Part shown: positions 3,442 through 45,469 of the stretch, one piece after another
How the letters are laid out: each line of letters starts with the position of its first letter
How positions within the stretch are numbered: the first letter of the stretch is position 1
The notes under the pieces: model-generated
What the model was told of the DNA's origin: nothing
Seen by the model: the letters and a program-made list of their open reading frames with translations, nothing else
Databases searched by the model: none
Position numbers and translations under genes: made by a program
Source of the DNA: Ipomoea triloba
Lineage: Eukaryota; Streptophyta; Magnoliopsida; Solanales; Convolvulaceae
DNA length: 64,000 nt
Assembly (NCBI RefSeq): GCF_003576645.1
Contig: NC_044920.1
Coordinates: forward strand, 14,378,599 to 14,442,598
Direction: 5' to 3'

Positions 3442-3446
3442 TCTAT
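3442..3446. repeat. Target-site duplication TCTAT, left copy (element B)
   Basis: TCTAT directly precedes the LTR terminus TGTTGG at 3447. The same five bases follow the other LTR terminus (CCTAACA, ending 29324) at 29325-29329. Five bases is the usual Copia duplication length. The match shows that 3447-29324 entered as one unit into A1. Confidence 0.9.
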
Positions 3447-5493
3447 TGTTGGTCCCGAATGGGTGGTGAAAAGTCTAGAGGGGGGGTGAATAGACTTTTC
3501 TAGCAAATTAAAAACTAATAACACTTTAACCAAAATAATTCCAAGTGAATAAATTCAACTTGAAATGCACAGCGGAATAACGTACGTAAAGTGCTATAAT
3601 TAAAACTCAGTGATGGAGATGAAATATATCACATGCAATACGATAGAAATACTTGGAATAGCTCAAATATGATATACAATAAATTTGGCTTGCATGCGGA
3701 CGTAGGAGATAACATAAATTTGTAAACCCAGATAAGAGTGAATAGTGATGAATAGAGCCTGGGTCTTGAAAATATTATGAATGCAGGAAATTAGCAAAAC
3801 CAAATAAGCAAGTTGTAGAGATTAGGAATATTAAATGGATTTAACAAATATGAATCTTGCAAATCAGTGTGTGTACGTGCAATCAGATATTATGTGTATA
3901 GAGCAAAATATATATAGGCAGTAAGTAAATGAGAGAGATATTTTTAAGTGGTTCGGCCAAACCCAGCCTACGTCCACTCTACTCCTTTCACTATCTTCAA
4001 TCACCCAGATACAATAGTGAACACCAAGTGCCAACCCAGCACTTCTATCTACACTCAGTAGAGATTTGAGTATCTTGCACAAAGCTATACTCCTACACCA
4101 ACGAGTGTCTCGCACAAAGCTACACTCCCCAGGGTTTTCACAAGCTCCTCTTGTTACTTAGGCCTCTATATACACTCAGTAGAAATTTGGATACAAGGTA
4201 GTAAAAGAAAATATTTTTCTCCAACTCTCAGGAACTAAAAATATGGATTTTTGGTTTTTTCAGATTTTTCTTGCTTTGCTATTCTCAGATGTATCACACT
4301 GCTATTCTTGCCTATCACTTGTATATCTCCCCATCTTCTTCTTGCTCAAGTGTTCTGTATTTATAGATAAAGAAAGAATTAATCCGTTGGAGAGAATTAA
4401 TTCTTTATTGTCAATCCAATGTGTTGATTGTAGTCTCCATGTGGTTTAGGTGGTATGGTGAGTTGAAACTCCGTTGTTGTATTTCTTCAGACTTTTTCCT
4501 CTTTTCTTTGCATCTTCAGATATTCTTGCGTGATGCCTCCTGATATTCTGGTCATCAGTCTCTCCTCTCTTCAAAATATACAGATCCGTTGTCTTTGCTT
4601 CCTGATATTCTGGTCAGCCTCTTGACTCCTGATATTCCTCTTCTTTTCCTTTTCTCCTAAAATTGCTCCTTATTTCCTTCCTGAAATTGCTCATTCTTCT
4701 TTTCCTTTCTGACCTTCTTTAATAACTTAGCAGTAGTAGGAATACAATAGTTCTTCTTTTCCTTTCTGACCTTCTTTAATAACTTAGCAGTAGTAGGAAT
4801 ACAGTAGTAGGAAGTTGATAAGAATAATTCCGTTGGAGAGGCTTTAGTCAGACATTTTCCACAATTAACATACATATTCCACATATTCCATTTTGTAGTA
4901 TAGTGTTTGTAGTAGGAATGTGTAGTGTAGTATTTTGTAGTGTAGTGTTTGTAGCAAGAATGTGTAGTGTAGTATTTTGTAGTGTAGTGTTTGTTGACAT
5001 ATTCCTTCATTTTTCCACTGATGAAATATTTCACATTCCACTGCTGCTGATCTATATTCCACTAATCACTGTGGAGTAAAAAAAAAGGACTTCCCTTCCC
5101 TGGGATTCCAACACTGGTCCACTTACCACATTAACCAAGCGAGCCATTCAAATTTGTTGGTTACTTTGCTGCAAATGGTTTATAAGTACGAATATTCTGG
5201 AGGTCTCTAGTTTTCATAAAATTCGTGGCTAAGATGGTTCGAACCATGGATTACTTGCCAACCTTATAAGTTTCTTACCATCTCTGCTGCTTCAACATTT
5301 AGTCATTTCTTGTGCTCTAAATATTTTTAAGCTGCATAGGATTCAAACCAAGTTCCTTCCTTCTCCAAGAATTCTTCCAAGTTGACTTTTGACTCTTTAG
5401 GTACATTAGCTTTTGAAAATTTTGGGTTTCTAATTTTTCAAACTAAAATACATTTCTTGGCTCATCAAAATCTTATTACAAATATTCCTAACA
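3447..5493 (-). repeat. 3' LTR of element B
   Basis: The 2,047-bp LTR runs TGTTGGTCCC...CCTAACA on the plus strand, with TG...CA ends. It matches 25567-26881 plus 28502-29324. It contains two 57-bp-spaced copies of a segment around 4694-4800 and a short version of a 27-bp minisatellite near 4900-4990. A polypurine tract abuts the inner end at 5494. The ORFs seen in it are products of low-complexity repeats. Confidence 0.9.
4358..4365 (-). promoter_or_regulatory. Probable TATA box of LTR-B
   Basis: TATAAATA on the minus strand, in the U3-side half of the LTR and conserved in the other LTR copy (26476-26483). In the 5' LTR this would drive element transcription. Sequence match only. Confidence 0.45.
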
Positions 5494-5508
5494 ATTTCCC
5501 CCTTTTTG
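5494..5508 (-). other. Polypurine tract of element B
   Basis: On the element's sense strand, an A-run followed by GGGGGAAAT directly abuts the LTR start TGTTAGGAA. The same arrangement is found in A2 at 43312. A second, similar purine tract lies at about 5877-5893. Confidence 0.8.
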
Positions 5509-6215
5509 ATGATGCCAAAACCTACTCAGTCATTTGGCTTAGTCTTTGAAAAATATAAATTTCAAAAATTTTCATTTTATTTCGACTAGCCATAGATGAG
5601 TTTAACAATGATTTTTTAACCTAGAAGAATTGTTTTTAGACAATAAAATTCCTACATGCATTATTGAGACTAATTTAATTCATTTTGAAATATTTCTCAA
5701 TCAAGCATTTATACAAACTACATAAAAAAAAAAACAATTCTTCATACCAAAAAAAACTTGTACTAAATAACTCCTTCCCCCTATTTATATGCCCAGAATA
5801 AATAAAGAACATATATACCAAATATTTATCTCTTTGCGATCCTTCATGAGACTTCCTTTGCACCAAATGACTGTCATTCTTTTCCCCCTTTTTGTCATCA
5901 TCAAAGAAACGCTGGATAGGAATGAAATCCTTGCTCTTGAATCATTTGCGCCATGGTGCATTTGCTTGTTTGTGCCATAAGTGTAGCAAAAATTGAGTAC
6001 TCCACAAAATAGGGTATGAGACCCTAGTAATAGGATCAACCTAACCATTTCACAGCAAGGCATAGCCCCGATAGATCACTATTCCCTTGTGATAAAAATG
6101 ATTGAAAACCGTAATCGTCAAGAACAGTAAGGGGCAATAATTGATATCTTTCGACAGTATGACCTTCCTTGAAACACTCAATTGGTTTCAACAATTTTCA
6201 CATGATCTTCTTTGC
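5509..6215. other. Non-coding stretch between PPT and the RWP-RK promoter
   Basis: AT-rich sequence inside element B with no supported ORF. It contains a second PPT-like tract near 5877-5893 followed by the same CATCATCAAA-type sequence that flanks the first PPT, hinting at a partial duplication of the element's 3' end. The upstream regulatory region of the plus-strand RWP-RK gene should lie here. Confidence 0.5.
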
Positions 6216-6222
6216 TATAAAA
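6216..6222 (+). promoter_or_regulatory. TATA box of the captured RWP-RK gene
   Basis: TATAAAA lies 60 bp upstream of the chosen ATG (6276), a normal plant core-promoter spacing that would put transcription start near 6245-6255. An upstream in-frame ATG (6141) precedes this box, so the longer reading is unlikely to be transcribed. Confidence 0.55.
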
Positions 6223-6275
6223 TCACCATTCGTCTTTCCATCAATCTGCTTGATTTTATAGCTTACATAAAAGAA

Positions 6276-7221
6276 ATGGCAGATACGACATATCCCTCAT
6301 CTTCGGATAACTCTTCCTTTTGGGATGACATTATCGTATCACCGTTAAGAGATAGTGCACAAAGTATAGATCTTACTGTTGTCAAAAATTTTGAGAATCC
6401 TCCACCAGAGTCGAATGAGATAATTGCTTCACCAGGTGTTACGGGTACAAATGTTGTGGCTGTTGATCAAGGTACTACTGTAGTAGTGGAGGAAGATAAT
6501 ACCACTACAGCGCTAGATGTAGCAACTATGAACGCAAGACTATTTCGCGGGAGAAAGAGAACTAGAAGAACATTTTGTGATACTACCACACTAACTTTTG
6601 AAAAATTTTCTGAATATTTTTATCTACCTTCTGAACAAGCTGCAGAGGAATTGCAGGTTGGGCGCGAAGTTTTTAAGAAAAAGTGTAGGGAAGTGGGGAT
6701 TTCCTACTGGCCTTATCGAAAACTTGTGAGTCTGGACAGATTATTGGCAAACGTTCAGGTAATTTCGATATTCCTATATCTCTTTCAACTTAACATTTTC
6801 GAAGGGTGTTTAACAATGTGTGATATAGGAATTTGGTGAAATCAAGGATCAGACTGAACTGCAAAGGACAATTAAGGGGCTAGAGGATGAGAGGGATGCG
6901 ATACTTCAAAATCCAAATTTAGACTTGACTGAAGCAACAGTGAGACTTAGAGACAAATGTGACAGGAATAGTTCCAGAAAGAGAAGGTATATAGATCCAA
7001 CAGCTTTTCCTTCTACTACTCCTGGAAGTTCATCACAAGCTCCTATAATTCCTGATATTCCTGAGTTAGCACCGGAAGCTTTTCTTTCCACTACTCCTGG
7101 GAGTTCATCACAAGCTCCTATATTTCCTGATATTCCTGAATTGGCACCAGAAGAAATACAAGAAGTACTTGCTTGGCTAGATGAGGATGTTCCTCCTCCC
7201 AAAAATATTAGTGACAAATAA
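6276..7221 (+). CDS. RWP-RK domain (RKD-type) transcription factor gene, two exons, captured inside element B
   Basis: Exon 1 is 6276-6758 (161 codons), intron 6759-6828 (70 bp, GT...TATAG, phase 0) and exon 2 6829-7221 (130 codons plus TAA). The predicted protein has about 291 residues. Order: acidic N-terminus, a basic patch RGRKRTRR (about residues 91-98), then an RWP-RK DNA-binding domain at about 106-161 (motif YWPYRK at 144-149, where the family usually has RWPYRK). A predicted helix rich in charged residues follows (about 162-205), as in RKD proteins. The C-terminus is Pro/Ser-rich with a 25-residue unit present twice. RKD proteins are nuclear regulators of egg-cell and embryo identity; that role here is only family knowledge. 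The gene lies antisense to the retroelement, between pol and the PPT, and shows no nonsense codon. Start choice rests on the TATA box at 6216 and a clean frame across the splice. Confidence 0.82.
6759..6828 (+). other. Intron of the RWP-RK gene
   Basis: The 70-bp AT-rich insert begins GTAATTTC after CAG and ends GATATAG. Exon 1 length is an exact multiple of three, and removing the insert joins two open frames into a typical RKD domain-helix arrangement. Reading through it instead gives a stop at 6837-6839. Confidence 0.78.
7003..7152 (+). repeat. 75-bp in-frame direct repeat in the RWP-RK gene
   Basis: Units 7003-7077 and 7078-7152 encode two near-identical 25-residue blocks containing TTPGSSSQAP and PDIPELAPE. 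They differ at a few bases, so the duplication is old rather than an assembly stutter. It extends the disordered tail. Confidence 0.8.
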
Positions 7222-7620: not shown

Positions 7621-10600
7621 TTAGCTCAATTCAATCATGCCCATTTCATGCCTTAGAGTAATGAATCTTAATTCGCATAAAGGCTTTGTAAGGATGTCCG
7701 CAATTTGATTTTCTGTGGGTATGTACTCGATCTTTAGATCTTTCTTTCCGATGTGATCCTGGATGAAATGGTGTCTCACGTCAATGTGCTTGGTTCGTGA
7801 ATGAAGTACAGGATTTTGGGTAATCGCGATTGCACTAGTATTGTCACAAAAAATACTAACATCATCGCAATTAATTCCATAATCCTTTAACTGTTGTTTC
7901 ATCCATAAAATTTGTGCACGACAACTCCCTGCTGCGATATATTCTGCTTCGGCTGTGCTTGTAGTAATGGAGTTTTGTTTCTTACTAAAGCAAGAAACTA
8001 ACCTTCCCCCTAAGAACTGGCACGTCCCTGAGGTACTTTTCTATCAATTTTGCAACCTGCAAAATCTGCATATGAAAATCCTGTTAGTTCAAAGTTACCT
8101 TCTTTTGGATACCATAGTCCAACGTTGATAGTGTTTTTGAGGTAATGAATAATTTTCTTGGTCGCAAGAAAATACTCTCTTTGGACTGTGATTGGAATCT
8201 CGCACATACACCTACTGAATAAGATATGTCGGGCCTACTTGCAGTGAGGTATAGCAAAGATCCAATCATTCCTCGATACTTCGTTTGATCAACATCTTTG
8301 CCTTCTTCATCCTTGTCCAGTTTGAGAGATGTGTTCATTGGAATTTTGACTGAACTTTTTCCTTCTAAGCCAAATTTCTTGATAAGATCTCTTGTGTATT
8401 TGGCTTGATTAATGAATATACCTTCTTTCGATTGTTTGACTTGCAGTCCAAGAAAGTAATTTAGCTCACTCATCATGCTCATTTCGAATCTGTTTTGCAT
8501 AAGCTTAGAAAATTTCTCACATAAATTTGCATTAGTACTTCCAAAAATAATATCATCAACATAGATTTGTACTTATAAAATATGATTATTTTCTTGAATT
8601 CTAAATAAGGTTTTGTCAACAAGGCCTTTGGTAAAACCACAACTAATTAAGAACATTGATAGGGTATCATACCAAGCTCTAGGTGCTTGTTTTAACCCAT
8701 ATAATGCCTTCTTTAGTTTATAGACCTTGTCAACTTCACCTTGTACCTCAAATCCGGGTGGTTGTTCAACATATACTTCCTCTTCAAGTAAGCCACTAAG
8801 GAATGCACTTTTCACATCCATTTGATAAACTGTGAAATTCTTGTATGCAGCGTAGGCTAGGAAAATTCGAATCGCTTCAAGTCTTGCAACTGGGCAAAAG
8901 TGTCATCAAAATCTATTCATTCTTCTTGCGAATATCCCTTTGCGACTAGCCTTGCTTTATTCCTAACAATGATGACGTCTTCATTTGCTTTGTTCCTAAA
9001 AACCCATTTAGTTCCAATAACATTGTGATTTTTTGGTCTTGGAACAAGCTCCCAAACATCATTTCTTTTGAATTGGTTCAATTCTTCTTGCATAGCCTCA
9101 ATCCAGCTTGGATCAGTTAAAGCTTCATCAATTTCTTTCGGTTCCATTTGAGATAGAAAGCATGCAAACAGAGTATCTCTTGTAGAGGATCTTGTTTTCA
9201 CGCCATCGTACAAGTTTCCAATAATAAGATCTTGAGGGTGATCTTTGAGCCATCTCAAATCTGGTTGAAGGTTGTTTTGAGGAGAGGATGACAGTGTAAA
9301 GTCATTTGCAGGTGGAGTTGAGGAAGATGGGTTTTGGTTTGTAAAGTTGGTTCCAATCTCATTTCTAAGGTCAGCCTCAACCTCATCCCTTAAGTCAGCC
9401 TCAACTTCATCACCTGCTACGTGATTTATGTACTGCCCTCCAATTTCAGGGGAATTTAATTCTAGATCATTTAACCCCTATAAAACATCATCTTCAGAAG
9501 AATCATTAGTAACACTTAAATCATTATGGACGTTCTTACCCATATTTGAAGTATTTGGTTCTTGGGTTTTTGTTGATTCATCAAATACAACATGAATTGA
9601 TTCTTCTACTACCACTGTCCTTTTGTTCAATATTCTGAATGCTCTGCTAGTAGACGAATATCCCAAAAATAATGCTTCATCTGCATGCTCATCAAATGTT
9701 TTTAGATACGATTTACCATTATTAAGAACAAAACATTTGCAACCAAAAGAATGAAAATAGCTAAGATTAGGCTTTCTCCCTTTCCATAATTCATATGGTG
9801 TCTTGTTGTGTGTTTTGTGAATCATTCTTTTGTTCTGAGTATAACAAGTAGTGTTGATAGCCTCTGCCCAAAAACGTTTTGGTAGTTCGACTGCTGAAAT
9901 CATGACTTGTGCGGCTTCTTTAAGTGTTCTATTTCTTCTTTCAGCTACACCATTTTGTTGTGGCGTCCTTGCGGCAGATAGTTGATGCAAAATCCCCTGT
10001 GAACTACAGTAGGCCTGGATCACGCCATTCACGAATTCTGTACCTCTGTCTGTACGGATTTTGGAGATTTTTGTGTCATTTTCGTTTTGAAGTTGTTTCA
10101 AGAGCTCTGGCAATTTTTGTTCCACTTCGTTCTTCTTATTGATAAATATCGTCCAAGTGTACCTGGAAAAATCATCAACAACAACAAGAGTATATTTCTT
10201 ACCACTTATACTTACCGGGTCTACTGGACCAAAGAGATCCATATGTAGTAGACTAAGAGGTCTTGATGTAGATTCTTGTGTCTTAGATTTGAAAGAAGAC
10301 TTGATTTGCTTTCCTTTCTGACACGCATCACATATTTGATCCTTCTTGTATACAATATTGGGTAAACCTTCAACTAACTTACATTTTGCAAGCTTGTTAA
10401 TAGACTTGAAGTTTAAATGATTTAATTTCCTGTGCCATTCCCAACTCGTAGTGTTAGAGTTGTTTGCCATTAAACATACCGAGTCCTTCGTTGTGCTCCA
10501 ATCAACTACATACATATTTTTCTTTCTTCTTCCGGTGAGCACAGTTTTCTTTGTGGATTCTTCTTTAACTCGGCATTTGTCTTTGAAAAACTCTACAAGG

Positions 10601-10842
10601 TATCCTTTGTCGCAGAATTGGCTTGTGCTAAGGAGATTGAACTTTAGTCCTTCCACATAGGATACATTTTCAATTCTTAAGCCATTCTTGATAACAGTTC
10701 CGGTTCCCTTTGTTATTCCATGATCATTTCCACCAAATATGACTTTTGGTCCTTCGATATTTCTGAACTCTACTAGACTAGCTTTATTACCGGTCATATG
10801 TTGAGAACATCCGCTATCAAAGTACCAAATATCCTGCAACAA
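7621..10842 (-). pseudogene. pol of element B (protease, integrase, reverse transcriptase, RNase H), decayed
   Basis: Read right to left. Aspartic protease has WYFDSGCSQHMTG near 10830-10790. Integrase has an HHCC-type region (HRKLNHL...CDACQKGK) and a DDE core (DLFGPV, RTDRGTEFVNG, PQQNGVAERRNR) through about 9800. Reverse transcriptase includes [10 protein letters not shown] and YVDD near 8550. RNase H/Copia C-terminus has CDNTSAIAITQNPVLHSRTKHIDV and ends at 7621. The frame is broken at 9478 (TAG), near 8917 (GGA to TGA, then a frameshift), just before YVDD (about 8578, TAA) and again near 8000-8210. Domain order INT before RT is diagnostic of Copia; motifs are SIRE-like. The PR start lies in a different frame from the gag stop at 10845. 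Confidence 0.85.
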
Positions 10843-10844
10843 AA

Positions 10845-11352
10845 TTAAGTACTTTTAGGTACCCAGATTTGTTTGGGTCCTTCCTTGTTAGTGATTTTAG
10901 GCATCCAAACCCACCTAGATCTCATTAATCCAAGATTAGGTGATTTGTAACCATTGATAGTATTATAATTGTAAGGAATTTGGACATTCTTTTTGTGGGC
11001 TAGCACTTGTCCAACATTCGTTTGTTTAATAAAATGAAATGTGTTGAACTTGGTTTTTGTCCATGGTTTGATTTCATCATGCCAGTCCTCTTCAGTAGGA
11101 TAATCCCTAACAAACCTCATCATTGGAAATTGTTTCCTATGAGGTCTTTGCGCAAACCTCATCATTGGAAATTGTTTCCTATGAGGTCTTTGCGCACTTG
11201 ACTCATTGGTAAATCTCTTACGAGAACCAAACTCAGCACTTGACTCATTGGTAAATCTCTTACGAGAACCAAACTCATGCTTTCTAAATTTCTGCATTGG
11301 CGAAAAATTATTGCTTTGAAGCTTCGGCCTTGTAGTGTTTATTCTAGCATTA
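10845..11352 (-). pseudogene. C-terminal gag segment of element B, cut off by Gypsy insertion
   Basis: An open frame of about 150 codons ends with IWVPKST and TAA at 10845-10847, directly before the protease in another reading frame. The same gag end (VWVPK.A stop) is seen in A1 and A2. Two adjacent 42-bp tandem duplications (11111-11194 and 11194-11277) lie in it. The rest of gag continues at 23838 beyond element G. Decayed structural protein; no zinc knuckle in this part. Confidence 0.65.
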
Positions 11353-11357
11353 GTTTG
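11353..11357. repeat. Target-site duplication GTTTG, left copy (element G)
   Basis: GTTTG precedes the Gypsy LTR terminus TGTAACAGCC at 11358 and recurs at 23833-23837 after the other end. It defines the insertion limits, including the 112-bp extension beyond the canonical LTR end. Confidence 0.75.
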
Positions 11358-11927
11358 TGTAACAGCCCAATTTTTATGTTCTCAAAAGTTACTATTTATA
11401 GCACTTTTAAATATGGAAACCTTCCAAAATTAGAAAGACGAAATAGGCAACACCTTTATTTAGAAACTAGTCACATTCCAACGTATGAAAATAAACTGTT
11501 TAATGTACTCATGAACCAAAGGGTGTTACCGCCACACCTAAACTAACTATAGCAAGATGTAAGGCTAAACCACCACAACTCAAATAAAATGATGAACTCC
11601 CAAAATGGTCTAACTCCAAAACCTTATTACATAATATCCACCAAATACGGTCTATTGGCGCGCTCTTCAAGCTTCTATTACTTCCTGTTATCACAGAATT
11701 CAAAACAACACAAAACACAAAATTAGCAAATTGCTAAGTAAGAAACTACTCCACCCCGTAAAGCAAACACCCAAGAATAAAGATTTACTCAATTAATTTT
11801 TTAAAACATTAACCACTAACATTTAATCTTTCGACCATTTCGAAAACCACATATATATTCTTATAATAAAATATAATCCACTTATAAATTAATTAATTAA
11901 TTAATTAATTAAATACGCTTATGGAAG

Positions 11928-12145
11928 AACAATATCCCACAAAGGGAACAATCAATATCCCGTAAAGGGAATAATCCATATCCCGCGAAGGGAACAATCC
12001 ATATCCCACGAAGGGAACAATCCATATCCCACGAAGGGAGCACTCTATATCCCACGAAGGGAACAATTCATATCCCACGAAGGGAACAATCCATATCCCA
12101 CAAAGGGAACAATCCATATCCCACGAAGGGAACAATTCATATCTT
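11928..12145 (-). repeat. 23-bp minisatellite in LTR-G (first copy)
   Basis: About nine imperfect tandem units of CCATATCCCACGAAGGGAACAAT. Because 23 is not a multiple of 3, reading it in any frame gives a 23-residue repeat (for example SWDMDCSLRGIW), which accounts for the spurious minus-strand ORF. Further arrays are at 13517-13734 and 21574-21786. Confidence 0.9.
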
Positions 12146-12520
12146 CCATAAGACTTTCTTCATAAAATTTTCTTTTAATGTATATATATTTAACCACCAA
12201 AACATTTTAACCCTTCGGCTCAAAACTCAATTGTCCAAAATCAAATATTTAAATACACTTATTTCCAAATTCGCAAATTAGAAAAATATTGATAATTCAT
12301 ATCTCAATTAAATTTACCAATCAACCATTGTAAAATACACCTTTGACATTTGATAGTACATAATTAAATATATTAAAAAAAATGCACGCATATATACACT
12401 CACTTATAAATTAACAAGTCACGAATCTAGTATATATATACGTTGTCAGTATCATCTATGAACAATAGAAATCTAAAAAAAATAACACTATATATATTCC
12501 TACGGCAATTTGCTTATATA

Positions 12521-12522
<2 letters not shown>

Positions 12523-12560
<38 letters not shown>
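12523..12560. repeat. (AT)n microsatellite in LTR-G
   Basis: Long AT dinucleotide run; its duplicate is at about 14112-14146. The corresponding run in the other LTR is at about 22160-22225 and is longer. Confidence 0.9.
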
Positions 12561-12563
<3 letters not shown>

Positions 12564-12805
12564 GACAATTAGATAGGTTCACATTCATATTTAAATAGGT
12601 AGGTACATGTATATATAATTACGTACGTCTATATATTATATATAATCTATTTAAATTATACATATATATATATATATATACGGCACATACTAAATAGATA
12701 ATATCTACATTTAATATTATTTTTTTAAAGATAAATATCATTTGGTCATGCATACAGCATACTACTAGTATACATAAAGATAGTTTTGAAAATCAATACA
12801 TATAA

Positions 12806-14109
12806 TTTCCTATGAGGTCTTTGCGCACTTGACTCATTGGTAAATCTCTTACGAGAACCAAACTCATGCTTTCTAAATTTCTGCATTGGCGAAAAATTAT
12901 TGCTTTGAAGCTTCGGCCTTGTAGTGTTTATTCTAGCATTAGTTTGTGTAACAGCCCAATTTTTATGTTCTCAAAAGTTACTATTTATAGCACTTTTAAA
13001 TATGGAAACCTTCCAAAATTAGAAAGACGAAATAGGCAACACCTTTATTTAGAAACTAGTCACATTCCAACGTATGAAAATAAACTGTTTAATGTACTCA
13101 TGAACCAAAGGGTGTTACCGCCACACCTAAACTAACTATAGCAAGATGTAAGGCTAAACCACCACAACTCAAATAAAATGATGAACTCCCAAAATGGTCT
13201 AACTCCAAAACCTTATTACATAATATCCACCAAATACGGTCTATTGGCGCGCTCTTCAAGCTTCTATTACTTCCTGTTATCACAGAATTCAAAACAACAC
13301 AAAACACAAAATTAGCAAATTGCTAAGTAAGAAACTACTCCACCCCGTAAAGCAAACACCCAAGAATAAAGATTTACTCAATTAATTTTTTAAAACATTA
13401 ACCACTAACATTTAATCTTTCGACCATTTCGAAAACCACATATATATTCTTATAATAAAATATAATCCACTTATAAATTAATTAATTAATTAATTAATTA
13501 AATACGCTTATGGAAGAACAATATCCCACAAAGGGAACAATCAATATCCCGTAAAGGGAATAATCCATATCCCGCGAAGGGAACAATCCATATCCCACGA
13601 AGGGAACAATCCATATCCCACGAAGGGAGCACTCTATATCCCACGAAGGGAACAATTCATATCCCACGAAGGGAACAATCCATATCCCACAAAGGGAACA
13701 ATCCATATCCCACGAAGGGAACAATTCATATCTTCCATAAGACTTTCTTCATAAAATTTTCTTTTAATGTATATATATTTAACCACCAAAACATTTTAAC
13801 CCTTCGGCTCAAAACTCAATTGTCCAAAATCAAATATTTAAATACACTTATTTCCAAATTCGCAAATTAGAAAAATATTGATAATTCATATCTCAATTAA
13901 ATTTACCAATCAACCATTGTAAAATACACCTTTGACATTTGATAGTACATAATTAAATATATTAAAAAAAATGCACGCATATATACACTCACTTATAAAT
14001 TAACAAGTCACGAATCTAGTATATATATACGTTGTCAGTATCATCTATGAACAATAGAAATCTAAAAAAAATAACACTATATATATTCCTACGGCAATTT
14101 GCTTATATA

Positions 14110-14152
<43 letters not shown>

Positions 14153-14394
14153 CAATTAGATAGGTTCACATTCATATTTAAATAGGTAGGTACATGTATA
14201 TATAATTACGTACGTCTATATATTATATATAATTCTATTTAAAAAAATTATACATATATATATATATATACGGCACATACTAAATAGATAATATCTACAT
14301 TTAATATTATTTTTTTAAAGATAAATATCATTTGGTCATGCATACAGCATACTACTAGTATACATAAAGATAGTTTTGAAAACCAATACATATA
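12806..14394 (-). repeat. 1,589-bp direct duplication across the element B gag / LTR-G junction
   Basis: 12806-14394 repeats 11217-12805, so a short piece of B gag and the LTR-G start occur twice. The copies differ slightly (AT-run length, a T and an A-run near 14230, C/T at the end). The junction at 12801-12810 shares only a few bases. Probably a scaffold overlap that was not merged; a true tandem duplication cannot be excluded. Confidence 0.8.
13517..13734 (-). repeat. 23-bp minisatellite in LTR-G (second copy)
   Basis: Duplicate of the array at 11928-12145 carried along by the 1,589-bp duplication; base-for-base the same as far as I compared. Confidence 0.85.
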
Positions 14395-15594
14395 ATTTAA
14401 CTATACGTATAGATATATAACCAATACATAAAATTTAACTATACGTATAGATATATAAATAATGTACACAATGAATCATATACATCACATCATTCACCAA
14501 TAAAATACATTTCTATCACAACTTTCAAAGAGAATCCATCTAAATCATATTTTTTTCACAATTTCAAATACGAGGTAAAAATCATCTTTAGTGGACATAA
14601 AAAACTTACCGTAAATGCTTATTTCTTCGAAATTCCTCTAAACCTTCAGTTGCTCACGCGCTCCCCTTCTATCACCCATCACCATCATCCAACCAAATAA
14701 AAATACAAGAGAAACAATATACACATAAACATACATTCTCAACCAAAATCCTACAACTAAACTACCCAAAATGAAAACAATTAAAATAGATAACTTACTA
14801 GACTTGTAGGATTACTTCAACCTTTTGAGGAATGTTTGAATAAGGAGGATGGAAGTTTTATATATATATTTTTTTACCGAACGGCAATGTGTATCAAGAA
14901 GAAAGAAGATTTTTTTTTTAGAACGGCAATGTGTATCAAGAAGAAAGAAGATTTTTTTTTTAAAGATGATGGTCTCGGCTAAGGGAAGAAGAATTTTTTT
15001 TTTAAAGATGATGGTCTCGGCTAAGGGAAGAAGAAGGAAAAGGCAAAATTATTTCATCCTCATAAATGGAAGAAGAAGGAAAAGGCAAAATTATTTCATC
15101 CTCATAAATACATGACTTATATAAAATAAAGAATAACTTATTTAGAATTAAAACTTAGGTAACTACCAATCATAATAATTTTGATTCAGAAATAATAAAG
15201 GAAAAGATATTACATATATATTATATAGACATGCTACTCTCATAAAATATATATACTACTTTCATATATAAAGTTATATATGAATATAATACATATATGC
15301 ATCCACACGTTAGACAATATATATCCCTATTTCCATACAGTACTTTATATATATGATTTATCTATGGAAGGAATATATAGAGTTTATATATTTATATATC
15401 ATAATCTACCTGTACATATATATATGCCCAACTATTAATATATATTAAATAAATATATCCTTATAACCTACGTACACAAATTATATACATACCTAATTTA
15501 CTCTAAATATTCTACTTGAAATTTCAATAGCTATCCATATAACATATCCATATATATGTACCAACAATATTTATATATTATGTACGTTGAAAAC

Positions 15595-15595
<1 letters not shown>

Positions 15596-15669
<74 letters not shown>
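15596..15669. repeat. (ATA)n microsatellite in LTR-G
   Basis: About 24 ATA/AAT units. The other LTR has a shorter run at about 23543-23589. Confidence 0.9.
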
Positions 15670-15670
<1 letters not shown>

Positions 15671-15799
15671 AAGGGTCAAAAATAATAATAGTGAGGTTAT
15701 AAGGAATCAAATGAATTTAGGACCCAAAGGATTTAAAAGAGTACAGATGGAAAAGAATTCTTAAGTCGGACAGAAAAAAGGAAAATACCGGGTATCACA

Positions 15800-15937
15800 A
15801 TCTACCCTCCTTAAAGAATGCTTCGCCCTCGAAGCACTCTACATCCTAAAATACGTGTCAAAACTAAAACTTATAATTCTTTGCTATAACGCCTAAAAAT
15901 AGAGTGTTAAAATCTACCATTCTTAAAGAAAAGTTAC
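15800..15937 (-). other. Two polypurine-tract-like sites at the 3' end of element G
   Basis: On the element's strand, AAGGAGGGTAGAT ends at 15800, next to the canonical LTR start TGTGATACCC. A second, related tract AAGAATGGTAGA lies 113 bp upstream and ends at 15913. The 15800-15912 segment between them also sits outside the canonical 5' LTR at 23721-23832, just inside the TSD. This suggests the upstream tract primed the plus strand. Confidence 0.65.
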
Positions 15938-18900
15938 CTCCTCGTAACTTGAGTCAGTACCTGAAACAAACAAGGCAGGATAACGCTGCCGCATATCTTC
16001 CTCTACTTCCCACGTAGCTCCTTCAGTCAAGTGATTAGACCACAACACTTTTACCAACTTTATTGATTTCCTCCGTGTATCCCTAGTTTTAAAATCCAAT
16101 ATCTTTACAGGTTGTTCCTCATATGTGAGAGATTCATCCATTTCTACAACCTAGCAATGTAATTATACTTTATTATTCTCCTTGATAAATCAAGCGATAA
16201 AAATCCTCAAAATAAATTTCTCCTTTGCCTCCGGCCTAATCACATGCGATGCGTCGTGGACATACTTCTTCAACTGAGAGATGTGAAACACATCATGTAC
16301 CTTATAATTACAAAACCAAAACTTAGTTTTTTTTTCTTTCCATTCTCATACAATGAAAATTAGTATCACAATCATTACCTTATCCAACTCCACCGGTAAG
16401 GCTAATCGATACGCCACTTTTCTAATTTTATCCAAAACTTCATATGGTCCAATAAACCTCGGGCTAAGCTTACCCTTTTTCCCAAATCGCATAACTCCTT
16501 TAGTTGGCGATATTCTCAGAAGAACCTTTTCTCCAACTTGAAATTCTGCTGGTTTCCGTCCTTGATCAGCGTATGATTTCTGGCGGTCTTGAGCGGTCTT
16601 CATCCTTTCCTGGATTAATTTAACCCTCTCGATGGTTTCTTCTAGGTACTGTGGTCCTAACACCACGACATCCAGCATATCTCCCCAACACATTGGACTT
16701 CTACATTTCTGGCCATACAATGCTTCGTAAGGAGCCATCTTAATACTGGTGTGATAACTATTGTTATAAGAGAACTCAATGAGATCCAAATGCTCATCCC
16801 ACGATCCTTGGAAATCTAGTATGCAAGCTCTCAACATATCCTCCAAAGTCTGGATAGTCCTCTCTGTCTGTCCGTCAGTAGATGGATGAAAGGCAGTACT
16901 CATCTTCAATTTCGTTCCTAAAGCAGTCTGTAATGCATTCCAAAATTGAGATAAGAACCTTGAATCTCGATCGGAAATAATATCCTGCGGTACTCCATGA
17001 TACTTAACAACTTGCTTGATGTATGCTTTTGCCAATTGTTCCATAGACCAAGTCTCATTCATGGCTATAAATCTGGTCGTCTTTGTAAGCCTATCCACGA
17101 TAACCCATACCTTGTTTTTCCCTGCTTTCGTCAGTGGTAACCCACCTACAAAATCCATTGAGATGGAATCCCACTTCCACCTTGGGACTTCCAGTGACTG
17201 AACTAACCCTTTTGGTTTACTTCTCTCAGCCTTTACCTTTTGGCAATTCAAACATCGAGCTACAAATTCAGCAACTTCTCTTTTCATTCGAGGCCACCAA
17301 AAGTGTTTCTTGAGATCTTTGTACAACTTGTCACCTCCAGGATGCACTGAATAAGGGGTGTTATGACCCTCATCCATAATTCGTCTCTTAACTTCTTCAC
17401 ATGCTTCAGGAATACACCACCGTCCCGCAAATCGAATGCTTCCATCCTTATGCAATTCAAAAGGTCCATTTTTGTTATTGATCATTCCAGCCCTTATCTT
17501 TTCCAACTTACCATCGTCGGGTTGCATTTGTTTGATTTCCTCATAAATTGATGGTGTAATCATCAATTTGTACAGCTCAATCTCCGACTTCACCTCTCCT
17601 TCAGTTTTGACCTCAAGGTTGAGCTTCCGAAAATCCTCACATAATTCCATTGGAAGTACCCATGTTGCATTAAGTGAATGTTCTGATTTCCTGCTCAATG
17701 CATCTGCCACTACATTGGCTTTCCCTTCATGGTATTGTATGATCAAATCATAGTCTTTTATCAGCTCGAGCCACCTCCTCTGCCGCATGTTCAACTCCCT
17801 CTGAGTGAAGATATATTTCAAACTCTTATGGTCGGTGAATATCTTGCACTGTACACCATACAAGTAATGGCGCCAAATCTTCAAAGCGAAAACTACTGCA
17901 GCTAGTTCCATATCATGGGTAGCGTAATTGACTTCATGAGTCCTAAGCTGTCTTGATGCATAAGCTACCACTTTTCCGTTTTGCATTAGTACACAACCCA
18001 ATCCCTTCTTAGATGCATCACTATAGATCTCGAATCCTTCTGTTCCTGATGGCAAAGTCAATACTGGTGCAGAAGTCAATCTCCTCTTCAGCTCTTGAAA
18101 AGCTTCTTCTGCAGAAGTCAATCTCCTCTTCAGCTCTTGAAAAGCTTCTTCGCAATTCCCATCCCACACAAACTTGGTAGTTTTCTTCATGAGGTTTGTC
18201 ATTGGTTTAGCAATCTTGGAGAAATCTCGCACAAACCTCCTGTAGTAGCCAGCTAGTCCTAAGAAACTTCGGACCTCAGTCACTGTGGTTGGTGCTGGCC
18301 AATCCATTACTGCTTCAATCTTAGTGGGATCCACTGTTACTCCTTCTTTAGTAATCACGTGCCCTAAGAATGCTATCTTATCTTGCCAGAACTCACATTT
18401 TGATAACTTTGCGTAGAACTTGTTTTCCCGTAGAATTTGCAACACAGTTCTCAGATGATCTTCGTGTTCCCCTAGGGTCTTTGAATAAATCAAGATGTCG
18501 TCGATGAAGACAACTACAAAATCATCCAGATATGGTCGAAAAACACGATTCATTAGGTCCATAAAGACAGCTGGTGCATTAGTTAGTCCGAAAGGCATAA
18601 CTGTGAATTCGTAATGTCCATATCGTGTTCGGAAGGCTGTCTTGGCTATGTCTTTTTCTGCTACCTTCAATTGATGATAGCCAGACCTTAGATCAATCTT
18701 GGAAAACGTTCCAGCCCCCTTCAATTGATCAAAGAGATCATCGATCCGAGGTAAAGGATATCTATTCTTGACTGTTACTTGGTTCAATTCTCGATAGTCA
18801 ATACAGAGTCTAAGACCACCATCTTTCTTCTTCACGAACAACACTGGAGCGCCCCACGGAGATACACTAGGTCTGATGTAACCTTTGTCTACTAGATCTT

Positions 18901-20667
18901 GGAGTTGCTCCTTTAGTTCTTGCATCACTTTTGGTGCCATCCTATAAGGTGTCTTAGAGATAGGTGTTGTCCCTGGCATCAAATCAATGGTGAACTCTAC
19001 TTCTCTTTCGGGCGGCATGCCTGGTATATCCTCTGGAAAGACATCAGGGAACTCCTTCACCACTGGTATTTGTTCAATTGCGTCTTCCAGGGCATTAAGA
19101 TCTTTCACCATGCACAGGTAGGCTTCTTGGCCATTCACCACATGCTTCACGATTTCCATAGCTGAAACAAGTTTTATCCCTGGTCGATTAGTAGCTCCTT
19201 TGTACGCCACATACTTACCTTCAGGGCTCCGTAGTATCACCTTCTGCTCAACACATATTATCTTGGCTTTATATTTGCCCAGCCAATCCATCCCCAACAC
19301 TACATCAATGTCTTTCAACTCGAACTCTATCAAGTTTGCTAGGAAGTCTATGCTATTTATTTTTATAGGTACATCCTTATGCAGATACCTACAAGCTACC
19401 ACACTACCCGTTGGGGTCTTTACAGCTATTCTTACTTCAGAGGTTGGTTCCCAACCTACTTTCCTAGCATAGGTGGTGGATACAAAAGAATTCGTAGCAC
19501 CCGAGTCAAATAAGACATACACAGGTGTAGATTTAGCAGAGAAAATACCTGTAACCACGTCACCAGCTTCCGCCTGAACCCTGTTCATCACGTAGATGCG
19601 TCCTTGACTGTTAATCCTGTTGCTATTATTCTGAGTCTGGTTATTTCCATTGTTCCTATTGTTGTTGTTCTGATTGTTGCCATTGCTCCTTAAGTTTGAC
19701 TTGTTACCGTTGTTGCCTTCGTTCCTATTCTGATTATGTGGGTTTCCTTCCCTATTCATATAACACTCAAAGGAACGATGCCCCATCGCATTGCAAGTGT
19801 AGCACTTCACCAGGTTCCCTTGACAATCCGCTCCTTGGTGGTCCTTCCCGCATTTCTTGTAGTGGAAATGCCTGTATGTCCTCTGATTCTTCTGTGCCGA
19901 TCCCTGCACTGGGTATCCACGACCATTTCTGTGTCCATTTCTCCCTTGGAAATTCCTATTCTGTCCTGAGTGGGAAAACTTGGGCTTCTTCTCCCCCTGT
20001 TGATGATTCTCCTCATTTCTTCTTTTGTTATTCCCATTGATCTCCCTCTGGATCTGCTGGACTCGATAATGGCGGGCTGCCCTATTATATGCATCCTCCA
20101 ATGTCTGACAATTGAACATGCTCAACCCCTTTTGAGTCTCGAAGTTGAGTCCCCGTAAGAACTTGCTTGCCTTGCCAGGCTTATCGGGAACTAAGGTGGG
20201 GGCAAATCTGGCTAAATTGATAAACTCTAAGTAATACTCCTGAACTGTTTTATTTCCCTGTCGCAGGTACAGAAACTCATCGTACTTTGCCACCCTAATG
20301 TGCTCAGGGTAAAACTTCTCTCTGATAGCGTCTTTTAATGCTTCCCAACCAAAATCAGGTCGTTGTCGTAGTGCTGGACCAACAGCAGCCCACCATAGAT
20401 CTGCCCGCTGCTGCAGATAATAAACTGCTATGTCTACTCGAATGCCCGCACCCAATCTTCTAACACAAGAGGGTCTTCTTGCCCCAAGAAGGTAGGAGGG
20501 TTTCGTTCCGCCACAATTTTAGCCATATCATTTCCATTTCCCTGGTTGTTTTGGAGCAAAGCATGTGTTAACTGGGCTAGCTGCTGCACAGTCTGGGCTA
20601 ATTCGGCATTGGTGGGAACATTGCCTGCCTGGCCACCCTGATTCTCAACATTCCTTCTAGGAGGCAT
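15923..20667 (-). pseudogene. gag-pol polyprotein of Gypsy element G with C-terminal chromodomain
   Basis: Starts at Met 20667 (MPPRRN). Gag is broken near 20434-20455 by a deletion/frameshift after DWVRAFE, then stays open to 16346 (1,369 codons). Order: gag core ([11 protein letters not shown]), zinc knuckle [14 protein letters not shown] near 19800, protease [12 protein letters not shown] near 19510, RT with FIDDILIYS near 18490, RNase H ([11 protein letters not shown]) near 18030, integrase HHCC (HPGGDKLY...CLNCQK) near 17300 and a DDE core ([21 protein letters not shown]) near 16870. An exact 42-bp duplication (18069-18152) adds 14 residues to RNase H. Beyond 16346 the frame is damaged, but FHISQLKKYV is readable. 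A chromodomain (YEEQPVKIL...VKVLW...EATWE) follows at 15923-16141. Chromodomains direct integration to heterochromatin. Confidence 0.88.
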
Positions 20668-20988
20668 TGCAATTCTCTACAGAGAAAGTACTAATATCTT
20701 CAGGGTAATCCTACCTTACATTTACATACAACAAATTACAAGGGAAGCACTTATGCACATATTCACATACTCCACCATTGCAAAACATGAAATGACATAC
20801 CTGAAAGATGCACAGCCTCGGGGTGCCAACTTGTAACTCCCCAAACAATACATAGCTATCCATATACAAAACATCAAATAAATACTTTAAAGAAATAAAT
20901 CTCACAATCTCACTGCGCAGTTTCAAACTTAGGTTCTAATCACAACCTTAGGTCTATAATTCATATTCTAGGCCCAATCATAACCTAG
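20668..20988 (-). other. Leader of element G between PBS and gag
   Basis: About 320 bp of untranslated leader between the primer site and the gag start. No ORF is supported. Confidence 0.6.
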
Positions 20989-21000
20989 GCTCTGATACCA
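20989..21000 (-). other. Primer-binding site of element G (tRNA-iMet)
   Basis: On the minus strand TGGTATCAGAGC, complementary to the 3' end of plant initiator tRNA-Met, three bases inside the LTR end at 21004. Confidence 0.88.
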
Positions 21001-21003
21001 ACT

Positions 21004-22163
21004 TGTAACACCCCAATTTTTATGTTCTCAAAAGTTACTATTTATAGCACTTTTAAATATGGAAACCTTCCAAAATTAGAAAGCCGAAATAGGCAACACC
21101 TTTATTTAGAAACTAGTCACATTCCAACATATGAAAATAAACTGTTTAATGTACTCATGAACCAAAGGGTGTTACCGCCACACCTAAACTAACTATAGCA
21201 AGATGTAAGGCTAAACCACCACAACTCAAATAAAATGATGAACTCCCAAAATGGTCTAACTCCAAAACCTTATTACATAATATCCACCTAATACGGTCTA
21301 TTGGCACGCTCTTCAAGCTTCTATTACTTCCTGTTATCACAGAATTCAAAACAACACAAAACACAAAATTAGCAAATTGCTAAGTAAGAAACTACTCCAC
21401 CCCGTAAAGCAAACACCCAAGAATAAAGACTTACTCAATTAATTTTTTAAAACATTAACCACTAACATTTAATCTTTCGACCATTTCGAAAACCACATAT
21501 ATATTCTTATAATAAAATATAATCCACTTATAAATTAATAAATTAATTTATTAATTAAATACACTTATGGAAGAACAATATCTCATAAAGGGAATAATCA
21601 ATATCCCGTAAAGGGAATAATCCATATCCCGCGAAGGGAACAATCCATATCCCACGAAGGGAACAATCCATATCCCGCGAAGGGAACAATCCATATCCCA
21701 CGAAGGGAACAATCCATATCCCACGAAGGGAACACTCCATATCCCACGAAGGGAACAATCCATATCCCACGAAGGGAACAATTCATAGCTTCCATAAGAC
21801 TTTCTTCATAAAATTTTCTTTTAATGTATATATATTTAACCACCAAAACATTTTAACCCTTCGGATCAAAACTCAATTGTCCAAAATCAAATATTTAAAT
21901 ACACTTATTTCCAAATTCGCAAATTAGAAAAATATTGATAATTCATATCTCAATTAAATTTACCAATCAACCATTGTGAAATACACCTTTGACATTTGAT
22001 AGTACATAATTAATAATACTAAAAAAAATGCACGCTATATACACTCACTTATAAATTAACAAGTCACGAATCTAGTAATATATACGTTGCCAGTATCATC
22101 CTAGAAAATCAAAAACTAAAAACTAATATATATATATATATATCTAGATATATTGTATATATA

Positions 22164-22230
<67 letters not shown>

Positions 22231-23542
22231 CAATTAGATAGGTTCACATTCATATTTAAATAGGTAGGTACATGTATATATAATTACGTACGTCTATATA
22301 TTATATACAATTCTATTAAAAAAAATTATACGTATATATATATACGGCACATACTAAATAGATAATATCTACATTTAATATTATTTTTTTAAGATAAATA
22401 TCATTTGGTCATGCATACAGCATACTACTAGTATACATAAAGATAGTTTTGAAAATCAATACATATAATTTAACTATACGTATAGATATATAACCAATAC
22501 ATAAAATTTAACTATACGTATAGATATATAAATAATGTACACAATGAATCATATACATCACATCATTCACCAATAAAATACATTTCTATCACAACTTTCA
22601 AAGAGAATCCATCCAAATCATATTTTTTTCACAATTTCAAATACGAGGTAAAAATCATCTTTAGTGGACATAAAAAACTTACCGTAAATGCTTATTTCTT
22701 CGAAATTCCTCTAAACCTTCAGTTGCTCACGCGCTCCCCTTCTATCACCCATCACCATCATCCAACCAAATAAAAATACAAGAGAAACAACATACACATA
22801 AACATAAATTCTCAACCAAAATCCTACAACTAAACTACCCAAAATGAAAACAATTAAAATAGATAACTTACTAGACTTGTAGGATTACTTCAACCTTTTG
22901 AGGAATGTTTGAATAAGGAGATGGAAGTTTTATATATATATTTTTTTATTGAACGGCAATGTGTATCAAGAAGAAAGAAGATTTTTTTTTTTTAAAGATG
23001 ATGGTCTCGGCTAAGGGAAGAAGAAGGAAAAAGTAAAATTATTTCATCCTCATAAATACATGACTTATATAAAATAAAGAATAACTTATTTAGAATTAAA
23101 ACTTAGGTAACTGCCAATCATAATAATTTTGATTCAGAAATAATAAAGGAAAAGATATTACATATATATTATATAGACATGCTACTCTCATAAAATATAT
23201 ATACTACTTTCATATATAAAGTTATATATGAATATAATACATATATGCATCCACACGTTAGACTATATATATCCCTATTTCCATACAGTACTTTATATAT
23301 ATGATTTATCTATGGAATGAATATATAGAGTTTATATATTTATATATCATAGTCTACCTGTACATATATATATGCCCAACTATTAATATATATTAAATAA
23401 ATATATCCTTATAACCTACGTACACAAATTATATACATACCTAATTTACTCTAAATATTCTACTTGAAATTTCAATAGCTATCCATATAACATATCTATA
23501 TATATGTACCAACAATATTTATATATTATGTACGTTGAAAAC

Positions 23543-23591
<49 letters not shown>

Positions 23592-23832
23592 AAGGATCAA
23601 AAATAATAATAGTGAGGTTATAAGGAATCAAATGAATTTAGGACCCAAAGGATTTAAAAGAGTACAGATGGAAAAGAATTCTTAAGTCGGACAGAAGAAA
23701 GGAAAATACCGGGTATCACAATCTACCCTCCTTAAAGAATGTTTCGCCCTCGAAGCACTCTACATCCTAAAATACGTGTCAAAACTAAAACTTATAATTC
23801 TTTGCTATAACGCCTAAAGATAGAGTGTAAAA
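21004..23832 (-). repeat. 5' LTR of element G with a 112-bp extension
   Basis: The canonical LTR is 21004-23720 (TGTAACACCCC...GGTATCACA on the plus strand). It is followed by 112 bp (23721-23832) equal to the internal sequence next to the 3' LTR, and only then by the TSD GTTTG. It carries the 23-bp minisatellite (21574-21786), a long AT run (about 22160-22225) and an ATA run. It lacks the 42-bp stutters seen in the other LTR. Confidence 0.85.
21574..21786 (-). repeat. 23-bp minisatellite in the 5' LTR-G
   Basis: About nine units of the same 23-bp repeat as at 11928, with different unit variants, giving three overlapping spurious ORFs. Confidence 0.88.
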
Positions 23833-23837: not shown

Positions 23838-25500
23838 ATAGCCAATTCCTTGTCTCATAGTGCTATCTTGACTTTTGACAAATTTTACTACTTGAGCTTT
23901 ATTAATTAAAGAAGTAGTAGAATTAGTCAAGTTTTCAGAAATTTTAGAACATGTAGGATCATAGCCCAGTCCGGCTTTATCTCCTGAGGGTACGGTGTTT
24001 GCATATTTACCATTTTATCCATCATTTTGGATGAATGTGTAAATGATGCTATTGTCTTCCTAAGTTTATGTTCTCTAATTTCTCTAGCTTTACACTCTTC
24101 TTGAAGGCGAATATTTTCAGCTTTCAAGTTTCTCATCTCAAGTAAAGCATCTTGCAATTTCTCATTTATTTTATCTTTTTCAAGAATCAGAGAATTATTG
24201 CGCTCTTTGAGTTGAGAATGAGTGTCCATAACAGTTTGACAATCTTTCATTAATTGAAATATAGATTCTCTAGAAAAAGATGAATTTGCATAATCAAAGG
24301 ATTTAGATGTTACCTCGTCTTCTTCTACTTCATGCGCCATTAGGCATTTTTCTTGGAAATCTGATTCACTGGTTATGCTTAGAAGACACAGCAGTGCAGT
24401 ATCCTCCGTTGAGCTATCACTTTCATCACTTGAAGATTCCTCAGACCCACTTGTCTCAAGAGGGTCACTTATTAAAGCTTTCCGTTTATCCTTCTTGAAT
24501 CTTCTATCCTTTGATTCAGATATTTCCTGTGGAGAGTTAGAAGTATTTTTATTTTGATTTTTACTCACCTTGGGGTATGGACATTCTGCCATGAAATGTC
24601 CTGGTTTTCTACAGTTGTAGCACATGTTTGTGTTATCATCAGAAAATTCTCTTTTTGGCCTTCTGGATGAACTTCCTTGATTTCTTTGAGATGAATTGTT
24701 GAAGTTGTTCTTCCGCATGAATTTTTTGAATTTCCTAACAAGCAAAGCAAATTGTTCGTCAGATAAAAAATCATTATTTCCTACTAACCTTGAGTTTGAT
24801 GGTTGTTCGGCTACTAAGGCTGTGGTTCTTTCTTCACGTTCCTCCTCAAGTTTTGATTTCATCTCGAACTCATACGCTTTGAGATCACTAAAAAGTTTGT
24901 CAGTTGAAACAACGTTTAGATCTCTATGGTCTCGCATGGCTGTCACTTTCATATCCCAACTTGACGGTAGTCCGCGGAGTATTTTGAGAGAGATTTCTTT
25001 TTTATGGAGGGTCTTTCCAAGATCAGTAATCTCTTCCAAAACTTTGACTAATCTAGACTCCATGTCTGCAATCTTTTCACTTGGTAGCATCTTGAAGTCT
25101 TCAAACTTTTTCATTGCAATTGTGAGTTTGTTGTCTTTTTCCTGTTCGTCTCCTTCGCCGATTTGGATTAAGACATCCCACACGTCTTTAGCTGTTTTGC
25201 ACTTACGGATTTTTGGGAAGATTGTATCATCCACAACTTTGAACAGTATATCCTTAGCTATATTGTCCAGGTTACTTCGCAAGCTATCATTAGAAGTCCA
25301 TTCCATCTTAGGCTTTGAAATATACTGTGGTCCATCTGGGCTTAGGATTGATGATTGACCTTCATAATTAAAATAGGACCATCTGAGATAACATCCTACA
25401 TTTCATCGTGGAGAGCTGATAAATGTACCTGCATACGTATTTTCCAATCATCAAATTTGTCAAGAGAAAATAATAAGTTTTGAGCCAAATCTTTCTTCAT
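23838..25500 (-). pseudogene. gag of element B, N-terminal and central part
   Basis: Start Met at 25500 (MKKDLAQNL), with a short readable N-terminus including FDDWKIRM. A frameshift/nonsense region follows at about 25310-25400, then an open frame from 25306 to 23927. The Copia gag core contains DNIAKDILF and TAKDVWD; a zinc knuckle CYNCRKPGHFMAEC lies near 24615-24575. A Ser/Glu-rich acidic stretch and a predicted coiled coil (LKERNNSLILEKDKINEKLQ region, about 24210-24060) follow. The C-terminal part is displaced to 10845-11352 by element G. Homologous to A1 and A2 gag. Confidence 0.8.
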
Positions 25501-25552: not shown

Positions 25553-25564
25553 GCTCTGATACCA
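25553..25564 (-). other. Primer-binding site of element B (tRNA-iMet)
   Basis: TGGTATCAGAGC on the minus strand, two bases inside the LTR end at 25567. Confidence 0.88.
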
Positions 25565-29324: not shown

Positions 29325-29329
29325 TCTAT
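29325..29329. repeat. Target-site duplication TCTAT, right copy (element B)
   Basis: Partner of 3442-3446. It lies just after the GMID codons at the end of A1 RNase H, so B entered at the 3' end of A1 pol. Confidence 0.9.
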
Positions 29330-43311: not shown

Positions 43312-43325
43312 ACTTCCCCCTTTTT
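43312..43325 (-). other. Polypurine tract of element A2
   Basis: On the element strand, CAAAAAGGGGGAAGT directly abuts TGTTAGG of the 3' LTR. The sequence is repeated at 45181 by the direct duplication. Confidence 0.82.
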
Positions 43326-45179: not shown

Positions 45180-45469
45180 NTTCCCCCTTTTTGATGATGC
45201 CAACACTTATACTTACTCTATATGGCTGATTTGATAGAGGATAAACATAGACTTTATTTTCAGCGCATATGGTAAGTTTGACAATTATTCTACTAAAGCA
45301 TTAATAAGCAAATTCACACAACACCCCCAGCAAAAGATATATATATTTAAGATTAAGGGAATGTTTACATGATTGAGTTTAGTAGAAAGATTTGAACAAA
45401 AACAAATAAGATCAAGAACAACATAAACAACAATAGACTGGAATAAGATGGAGTTTGGACCACGAGAAC

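Follow-up and report, generated by a model that had tools for sequence, protein, structure and literature searches.

The window, the 64-kb stretch of Ipomoea triloba DNA analysed here, contains a two-exon gene of the RKD type inside a Sirevirus-like Copia element, here called B; the gene lies antisense to the element, between its pol gene and its polypurine tract (PPT; Table 1). RKD proteins control egg and embryo identity, and expression in reproductive organs is a mark of the subfamily. We think it probable that a family of such elements in Ipomoea carries this host-derived gene in its pol-PPT interval, that gene and element move together, and that the gene was captured with its intron retained.

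Table 1. Features of the RKD gene, of element B and of the element nested in it (window positions; strand as read in the window)
Feature	Position	Strand	Basis or remark
RKD exon 1	6276-6758	+	Translation; RWP-RK domain at about 6591-6734 inside
RKD intron, 70 nt, phase 0, GT-AG	6759-6828	+	Sequence
RKD exon 2 and stop codon	6829-7221	+	Translation
TATA-like promoter element GCTATAAAATCA	6214-6225	+	Putative, from sequence
In-frame tandem duplication, 75 nt, RKD exon 2	7002-7151	+	The two units differ by 5 synonymous and 2 nonsynonymous changes
Target-site duplication TCTAT, PPT-side flank of B	3442-3446	.	Sequence
3' LTR of B	3447-5493	-	97.3% identity to the other LTR over its initial 1.5 kb; TG...CA ends
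Terminal PPT AGGGGGAA, then AT and LTR start	5496-5503	-	Sequence
Second, identical PPT, between RKD gene and terminal PPT	5882-5889	-	Sequence
Noncoding flank upstream of RKD gene	5867-6127	+	Pieces in I. batatas gene models P0023, P0004, P0025
B pol	7627-10848	-	Open integrase ORF; stops and frame changes in RT/RNaseH
Antisense stretch of B pol	9450-9506	+	Counterpart of the final exon in I. batatas model P0022
Nested Gypsy element	11236-23832 (rough limits)	-	pol 16346-20455; splits B between gag and pol
B gag, Copia-type with zinc knuckle, 459-aa ORF	23927-25306	-	ORF and Pfam
Primer binding site TGGTATCAGAGC	25553-25564	-	Adjoins 5' LTR
5' LTR of B	25567-29324	-	Inner edge 25567; contains inverted duplication 27064-28501
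Target-site duplication TCTAT, other copy	29325-29329	.	Sequence

Joined, the two exons encode a stop-free protein of 291 amino acids. Residues 106-153 correspond to the Pfam RWP-RK domain (PF02042), which matched exon 1 over profile positions 2-49 of 49 with an E value of 3.4e-17; with a score of 62.5 bits where the cutoff is 29.3, the match is not due to chance. The local RWP-RK motif reads YWPYRK. RWP-RK was the sole Pfam family to score above its cutoff in the protein, and the PB1 domain was absent. PB1 marks the NLPs, while RKDs are RWP-RK proteins lacking PB1, according to PMC7569760; by that definition the protein is an RKD and not an NLP. The intron reads GT...AG on the plus strand and CT...AC on the minus strand, the strand of B. 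The TATA-like sequence lies about 50-60 nt upstream of the ATG. Between promoter and ATG, GCTATAAAATCA also forms a perfect 12-nt inverted repeat with TGATTTTATAGC (6214-6225 and 6251-6262), which places TATA-like boxes facing either direction. No second RKD copy was found in the window by tblastn. Comparison with solved structures yielded nothing better than weak matches to ribosomal protein L13 (best E values 0.013 and 0.017), and an AlphaFold model of the I. triloba relative P0003 had a mean pLDDT of 45.3 and was set aside. A scan of IMG/VR with exon 1 gave 5 pattern matches, none of them a relative.

Element B belongs to the Ty1/Copia group: an LTR pair, a primer binding site, a PPT and a target-site duplication are all present, and integrase precedes reverse transcriptase. 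The primer site TGGTATCAGAGC is presumably of the initiator-Met tRNA type. Pol is encoded on the minus strand, with integrase and RVT_2 Pfam domains and its C-terminus at about 7627. A first-pass annotation, made from the sequence alone, had described a complete, stop-free two-exon RKD-type gene with a TATA box and a GT-AG intron, antisense to B between pol and PPT and enclosed by the LTRs and TCTAT duplication of the element. Translation and the Pfam search confirmed the gene, and the sequence bore out its intron, its TATA-like box, its orientation and its enclosure. The same annotation called B pol riddled with stops, which overstates the damage: the gene is broken, but the lesions seen in some 3.2 kb amount to 3-4 stops and 3 frame changes, mainly in RT/RNaseH, and an integrase ORF of 454 amino acids is open. 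With its broken pol and the Gypsy element nested in it, B itself looks dead.

When 40 bp from each flank of B were joined, the translation read ...LRLELGMIELG*, much as the pol of B itself ends (...MGMIELS*); B thus reads as a clean insertion in the last codons of the pol gene of another Copia element. The DNA at 670-2781, to the left of B, is 76% identical to 47732-49853, which adjoins the pol gene of a further Copia element. Both regions contain large ORFs in the sense of pol, which lie between pol and the 3' LTR of neighbouring Copia elements (451-2076 and 45470-48970, minus strand). We refer to these as env-position ORFs by their place only, and no Pfam family scored above its cutoff in them. 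The RKD gene fills, in antisense, the pol-PPT interval in which these neighbours have a large sense ORF.

The two LTRs of B differ by 38 substitutions in 1499 columns (2 gaps) and by 23 in 624 columns (24 gaps), or about 2.9%; about 50 nt are common to the two blocks, and the second is on the far side of the contig join. With a substitution rate of 1.3e-8, given in PMC10011142, a hand calculation would place the insertion of B roughly 1.1 million years ago. The inverted duplication in the 5' LTR (27064-28501), made up of LTR and flanking pol sequence, encloses a join of one N at 28092 and is probably an assembly fold-back or contig-join artefact. No N occurs between 3447 and 28091, so the RKD gene, pol, gag and the 3' LTR are not separated by a gap. 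Elsewhere in the window, 43314-45179 and 45181-47049 are 1.87-kb tandem copies, 99.8% identical with exactly one N between them (45180); here the assembly has probably duplicated the 3' part of a Copia element. Arrays of a 23-nt tandem repeat at 11861-12212 and 13450-13801, apparently in an LTR of the nested Gypsy element, fall within a 1.59-kb direct duplication whose copies are 99.3% identical.

We identified 18 proteins related to the RKD gene in a first protein search; a profile search from an alignment added P0021-P0024, and a composite query added P0025. All 18 proteins of the first search, and all 22 of the profile search, are from Ipomoea. Relatives of a first type, with about 85-95% identity over the matched parts, are present at several places in both I. 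triloba and I. batatas (sweetpotato). The I. triloba RKD1-like clusters P0003, P0005, P0006 and P0009 are 94, 91, 88 and 86% identical to the window copy (for P0009 across 55% of the query) and hold 3, 11, 1 and 2 member sequences, with species and place given for the named member alone; their longest contigs have four different lengths. First-type gene models of I. batatas are named from chromosomes 2, 7, 13 and 15 and from one scaffold. A second type shows 68-71% identity, in clusters of 4, 2 and 1 members, and three single-member RKDs of I. triloba (P0014, P0015 and P0021) are 41-42% identical to the window copy in protein. The 75-nt duplication of exon 2 is found in P0003, P0005 and P0006 and is missing from P0007, P0008, P0014 and P0015. 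Four I. batatas models (P0013 and P0017-P0019) consist of pieces of RKD exon fused to glutamyl endopeptidase, shaggy kinase, ARF2-like and RABD2a sequences, which suggests either that copies inserted in or close to genes or that the annotation is at fault. With an RKD gene of this kind inside an element, part of what is annotated as "RKD1-like" in Ipomoea may belong to elements. That would bear on counts of RWP-RK genes, and perhaps also on the RKD transcripts (FPKM 18.4) that PMC5234144 reports in the roots of sweetpotato and not in those of I. trifida.

Linkage between gene and element was examined by placing all 23 homologues (P0003-P0025) on the window with tblastn, extra window DNA being accepted at E below 1e-3. 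P0022, from I. batatas scaffold 9913, runs from RKD exon 1 into 19 amino acids encoded by the plus strand of B pol (9450-9506). This pol part is matched over 24 amino acids at 83% identity (E = 4e-9), with 18 of 19 amino acids identical after a TTTCAG acceptor, and the model ends at the position where the window has a stop. On the PPT side, P0023 (I. batatas chr07) begins with 34 amino acids that are all identical to the translation of 5867-5968, the second PPT included; P0004 (chr13) includes 6053-6127 (23/25 amino acids); and P0025 (chr15) weakly matches 5953-6015 (14/21 amino acids, E = 7e-4). For P0011, P0012 and P0013 the matched DNA reaches a few codons 5' of the RKD ATG, to 6261, 6213 and 6261 respectively, and the I. 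triloba protein P0009 reads through the RKD intron, with 23 of 26 amino acids identical. The remaining homologues showed no window DNA beyond the RKD gene at this threshold. The pol side is thus represented in one of the 23 database proteins and the PPT side in three, one of them weakly. Judged from gene models rather than aligned genomic copies, I. batatas thus has RKD next to B-type DNA at other places, on the pol side or on the PPT side, with order and orientation as in the window. To that extent the first-pass suggestion that other B-type elements might carry the gene at the same place holds for I. batatas, with P0025 its weakest case. Its suggestion that the intron survives transposition also agrees with the intron kept in the window copy and read through in P0009.

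These results bear on two other origins for the arrangement. RKD DNA might have entered a single, already dead copy of B, by way of a DNA transposon or of repair, and none of the window's remaining Copia elements carries RKD, tblastn finding one copy. However, element DNA lies beside RKD in P0022, P0023, P0004 and, weakly, P0025, and our search for transposon borders around the gene gave only weak inverted-repeat pairs (for example 27 nt at 70%); we regard a later insertion as highly improbable. Equally improbable, in our judgement, is an ordinary host RKD family that spread by segmental duplication and came to be flanked by retroelements by chance. RWP-RK families have expanded in some plants, pearl millet being the case given in PMC10011142, but the RKD gene here lies within the LTRs and target-site duplication of one element, and in other copies DNA of that element adjoins RKD on the pol side or the PPT side.

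A more serious alternative to a functional gene is that RKD was captured and spread with the element as a passenger, without function, and that any sign of constraint reflects its former life in the host or a bias of annotation. We give this somewhat less than an even chance. The clean reading frame beside a broken pol, which the first-pass annotation took as a hint of selection, does not decide the matter. By hand estimate, a stop-creating fraction of 0.042 and about 1.5% change since insertion would give 876 nt about 0.55 new stops, so it is no surprise that one copy still has its frame open, and the rate of damage in B pol predicts only 1-2 lesions over the same length. At this age the contrast is not significant, and we rejected it, as weak evidence, for a proof of selection. 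The inactive appearance of B also fits a passenger.

The pattern of divergence within the protein speaks against a mere passenger. Among the window copy, P0003, P0005 and P0006, 10 of the 124 positions in residues 93-216 are variable, compared to 37 of 158 outside (Fisher P = 6e-4); for the Pfam RWP-RK domain alone the counts are 3 of 48 inside and 44 of 234 outside (P = 0.034). These tests used 4 of the 8 alignment rows with gapped columns dropped, and since the copies are related the P values are nominal. Pairwise, four of six tests of residues 93-216 fell below 0.02, and the other two, both with P0006, were not significant (P = 0.15 and 0.21). When 11 first-type copies were each compared to the window copy, differences totalled 30/686 in residues 93-216, 119/839 in residues 1-92 and 19/224 after residue 216. 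The central region was less diverged than residues 1-92 in all 11, in P0012 only just; seven of the 11 were comparable only up to residue 127, and 12 homologues did not enter this count: P0004, whose exon is repeated, the proteins of the second type along with its fragments, and the distant homologues. The excess of synonymous differences between the two units of the exon 2 duplication has a P of 0.015, or 0.027 with transition bias, and near full-length frames persist in P0003, P0005 and P0006. Conversely, the translated noncoding flanks of three of the four copies that have them (34/34, 23/25 and 18/19 amino acids) are at least as similar to the window as the N-terminal part of RKD in the same copies, the fourth (14/21) being lower, and constraint may be overestimated because a protein database favours open frames. 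The lower divergence of residues 93-216 and the 5:2 synonymous bias would nonetheless be better evidence of selection than the clean ORF, if indirect.

The history that we favor, capture of a host gene by a mobile Copia family, would begin with a host RKD gene being picked up either as DNA or as an antisense transcript. In the genomic RNA of the element the intron would then be in antisense; splice signals are missing from that RNA, so the intron could not be spliced and each new copy would keep it through every round of copying. Plus-strand transcripts from the gene's own promoter, on the other hand, could be spliced. Two further steps are more tentative, and taken together we rate them well short of an even chance: that the gene's own TATA promoter drives a transcript which is spliced and translated, and that the protein acts as a nuclear DNA-binding regulator of the element, of host genes or of both, as has been proposed for other antisense accessory ORFs. 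If there is a product, a nuclear regulator seems the likeliest one. It is also conceivable, though unlikely, that the element recruited a factor of egg and embryo identity whose protein steers expression, or the state of the host cell, toward germline or embryonic cells, in which insertions are heritable.

It might instead be the antisense transcript that matters and not the protein, with double-stranded RNA formed with the genomic RNA of the element or with host RKD mRNA giving rise to small RNAs. The orientation of the gene is the one required, and a regulatory role for antisense transcripts has been proposed (PMC7264820). This explanation leaves the protein-level conservation of residues 93-216 unaccounted for, however, and the single-member I. 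triloba RKDs P0014, P0015 and P0021 are only 41-42% identical to the window copy in protein; we consider a transcript-based role quite unlikely.

We also scanned for the RKD-binding motif RWCBTTTCRTYTTCY given in PMC10114336, allowing up to 3 mismatches and comparing the observed number of sites with the mean and maximum of 30 block shuffles. The 3' LTR of B has 12 sites (mean 3.3, maximum 8), and the pieces of its 5' LTR have 6 (1.9, 5) and 3 (1.2, 5). The linker has 2 (1.8, 5) and the RKD gene 3 (1.1, 4), while LTRs of other Copia elements have 5 (3.0, 7), 2 (0.8, 3) and 6 (2.3, 6). Two pieces of B exceed all their shuffles, an excess that may not reflect binding sites, since their best common site is a run of pyrimidines and block shuffling is a crude control.

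Among known elements, B most recalls the Sireviruses as described in PMC2829016, in which a PPT octamer, AGGGGGAG, is present in multiple copies in the linker, four on average, and the variant AGGGGGAA is found in ToRTL1 and Tnd-1. Shared features are the AT attachment dinucleotide and an inverted repeat around the PPT/LTR junction (in B TTGGCATCATCAAAA / TTTTGATGAGCCAAG, both features seen by eye), and a linker interval; the octamer agrees in part, B having two copies of the variant. B differs in that its linker holds an antisense RKD gene and only two PPTs, and in that a simple pattern search of its 3' LTR (CpG observed/expected 0.33) found none of the CGG-CCG boxes; for lack of these boxes we term it Sirevirus-like rather than a Sirevirus.

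The place of the RKD gene is that of an antisense aORF (aORF-3R), an antisense ORF in the interval from pol to the 3' LTR. Such ORFs are present in most copies of their family; for RKD, 4 of the 23 database proteins point to linked copies elsewhere. It differs from the aORF-3Rs described so far in its clear protein similarity to a recognizable plant transcription-factor family, in its intron and in its Copia setting, Grande and RIRE2 being Gypsy elements. Additional antisense ORFs reviewed in PMC7264820, gene23 of Grande and those of RIRE2, Retand (ORF4) and PvRetro13 (ORF2), occupy the same slot and occur in many copies. Transcription from its own promoter and a nuclear product are reported there for gene23. 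According to the same review, none of the aORF-3R proteins is clearly similar to other proteins, the domain matches being to SMC (PvRetro13) and transposase 28 (Retand), and for most antisense accessory ORFs the origin is unknown and the function undetermined. PMC11963269 finds known domains in 72 of 104 Retand ORFs, likewise antisense in the pol-3' LTR region; most are TRP28, with predicted DNA binding. Retand, however, is a Gypsy lineage spread across eudicots and Liliopsida, the function of TRP28 is unknown, and the terms "RWP", "intron" and "transcription factor" are absent from the main text of that paper.

Cellular sequences have also entered LTR elements by other routes. Gypsy elements of orchids gained an ORF with a 2-ODD m6A demethylase domain (PMC9289625), a cellular-type domain as in B, but one that acts on RNA rather than a transcription factor. 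Transduced genes of the maize Bs1 type are likewise host coding sequence within an LTR element, usually in sense and in one or a few copies (PMC7264820), whereas the RKD gene of B is antisense, has kept its intron and exists in several copies. The titles and opening lines of abstracts of the open-access literature matches listed described no RWP-RK gene inside an LTR element, which is not proof that none has been reported. Antisense accessory ORFs in plant LTR elements are themselves known; what appears to be new is one that is a recognizable host transcription factor with an intron. Its clear descent makes the RKD gene of B a case of an antisense accessory gene with a traceable origin and a testable function.
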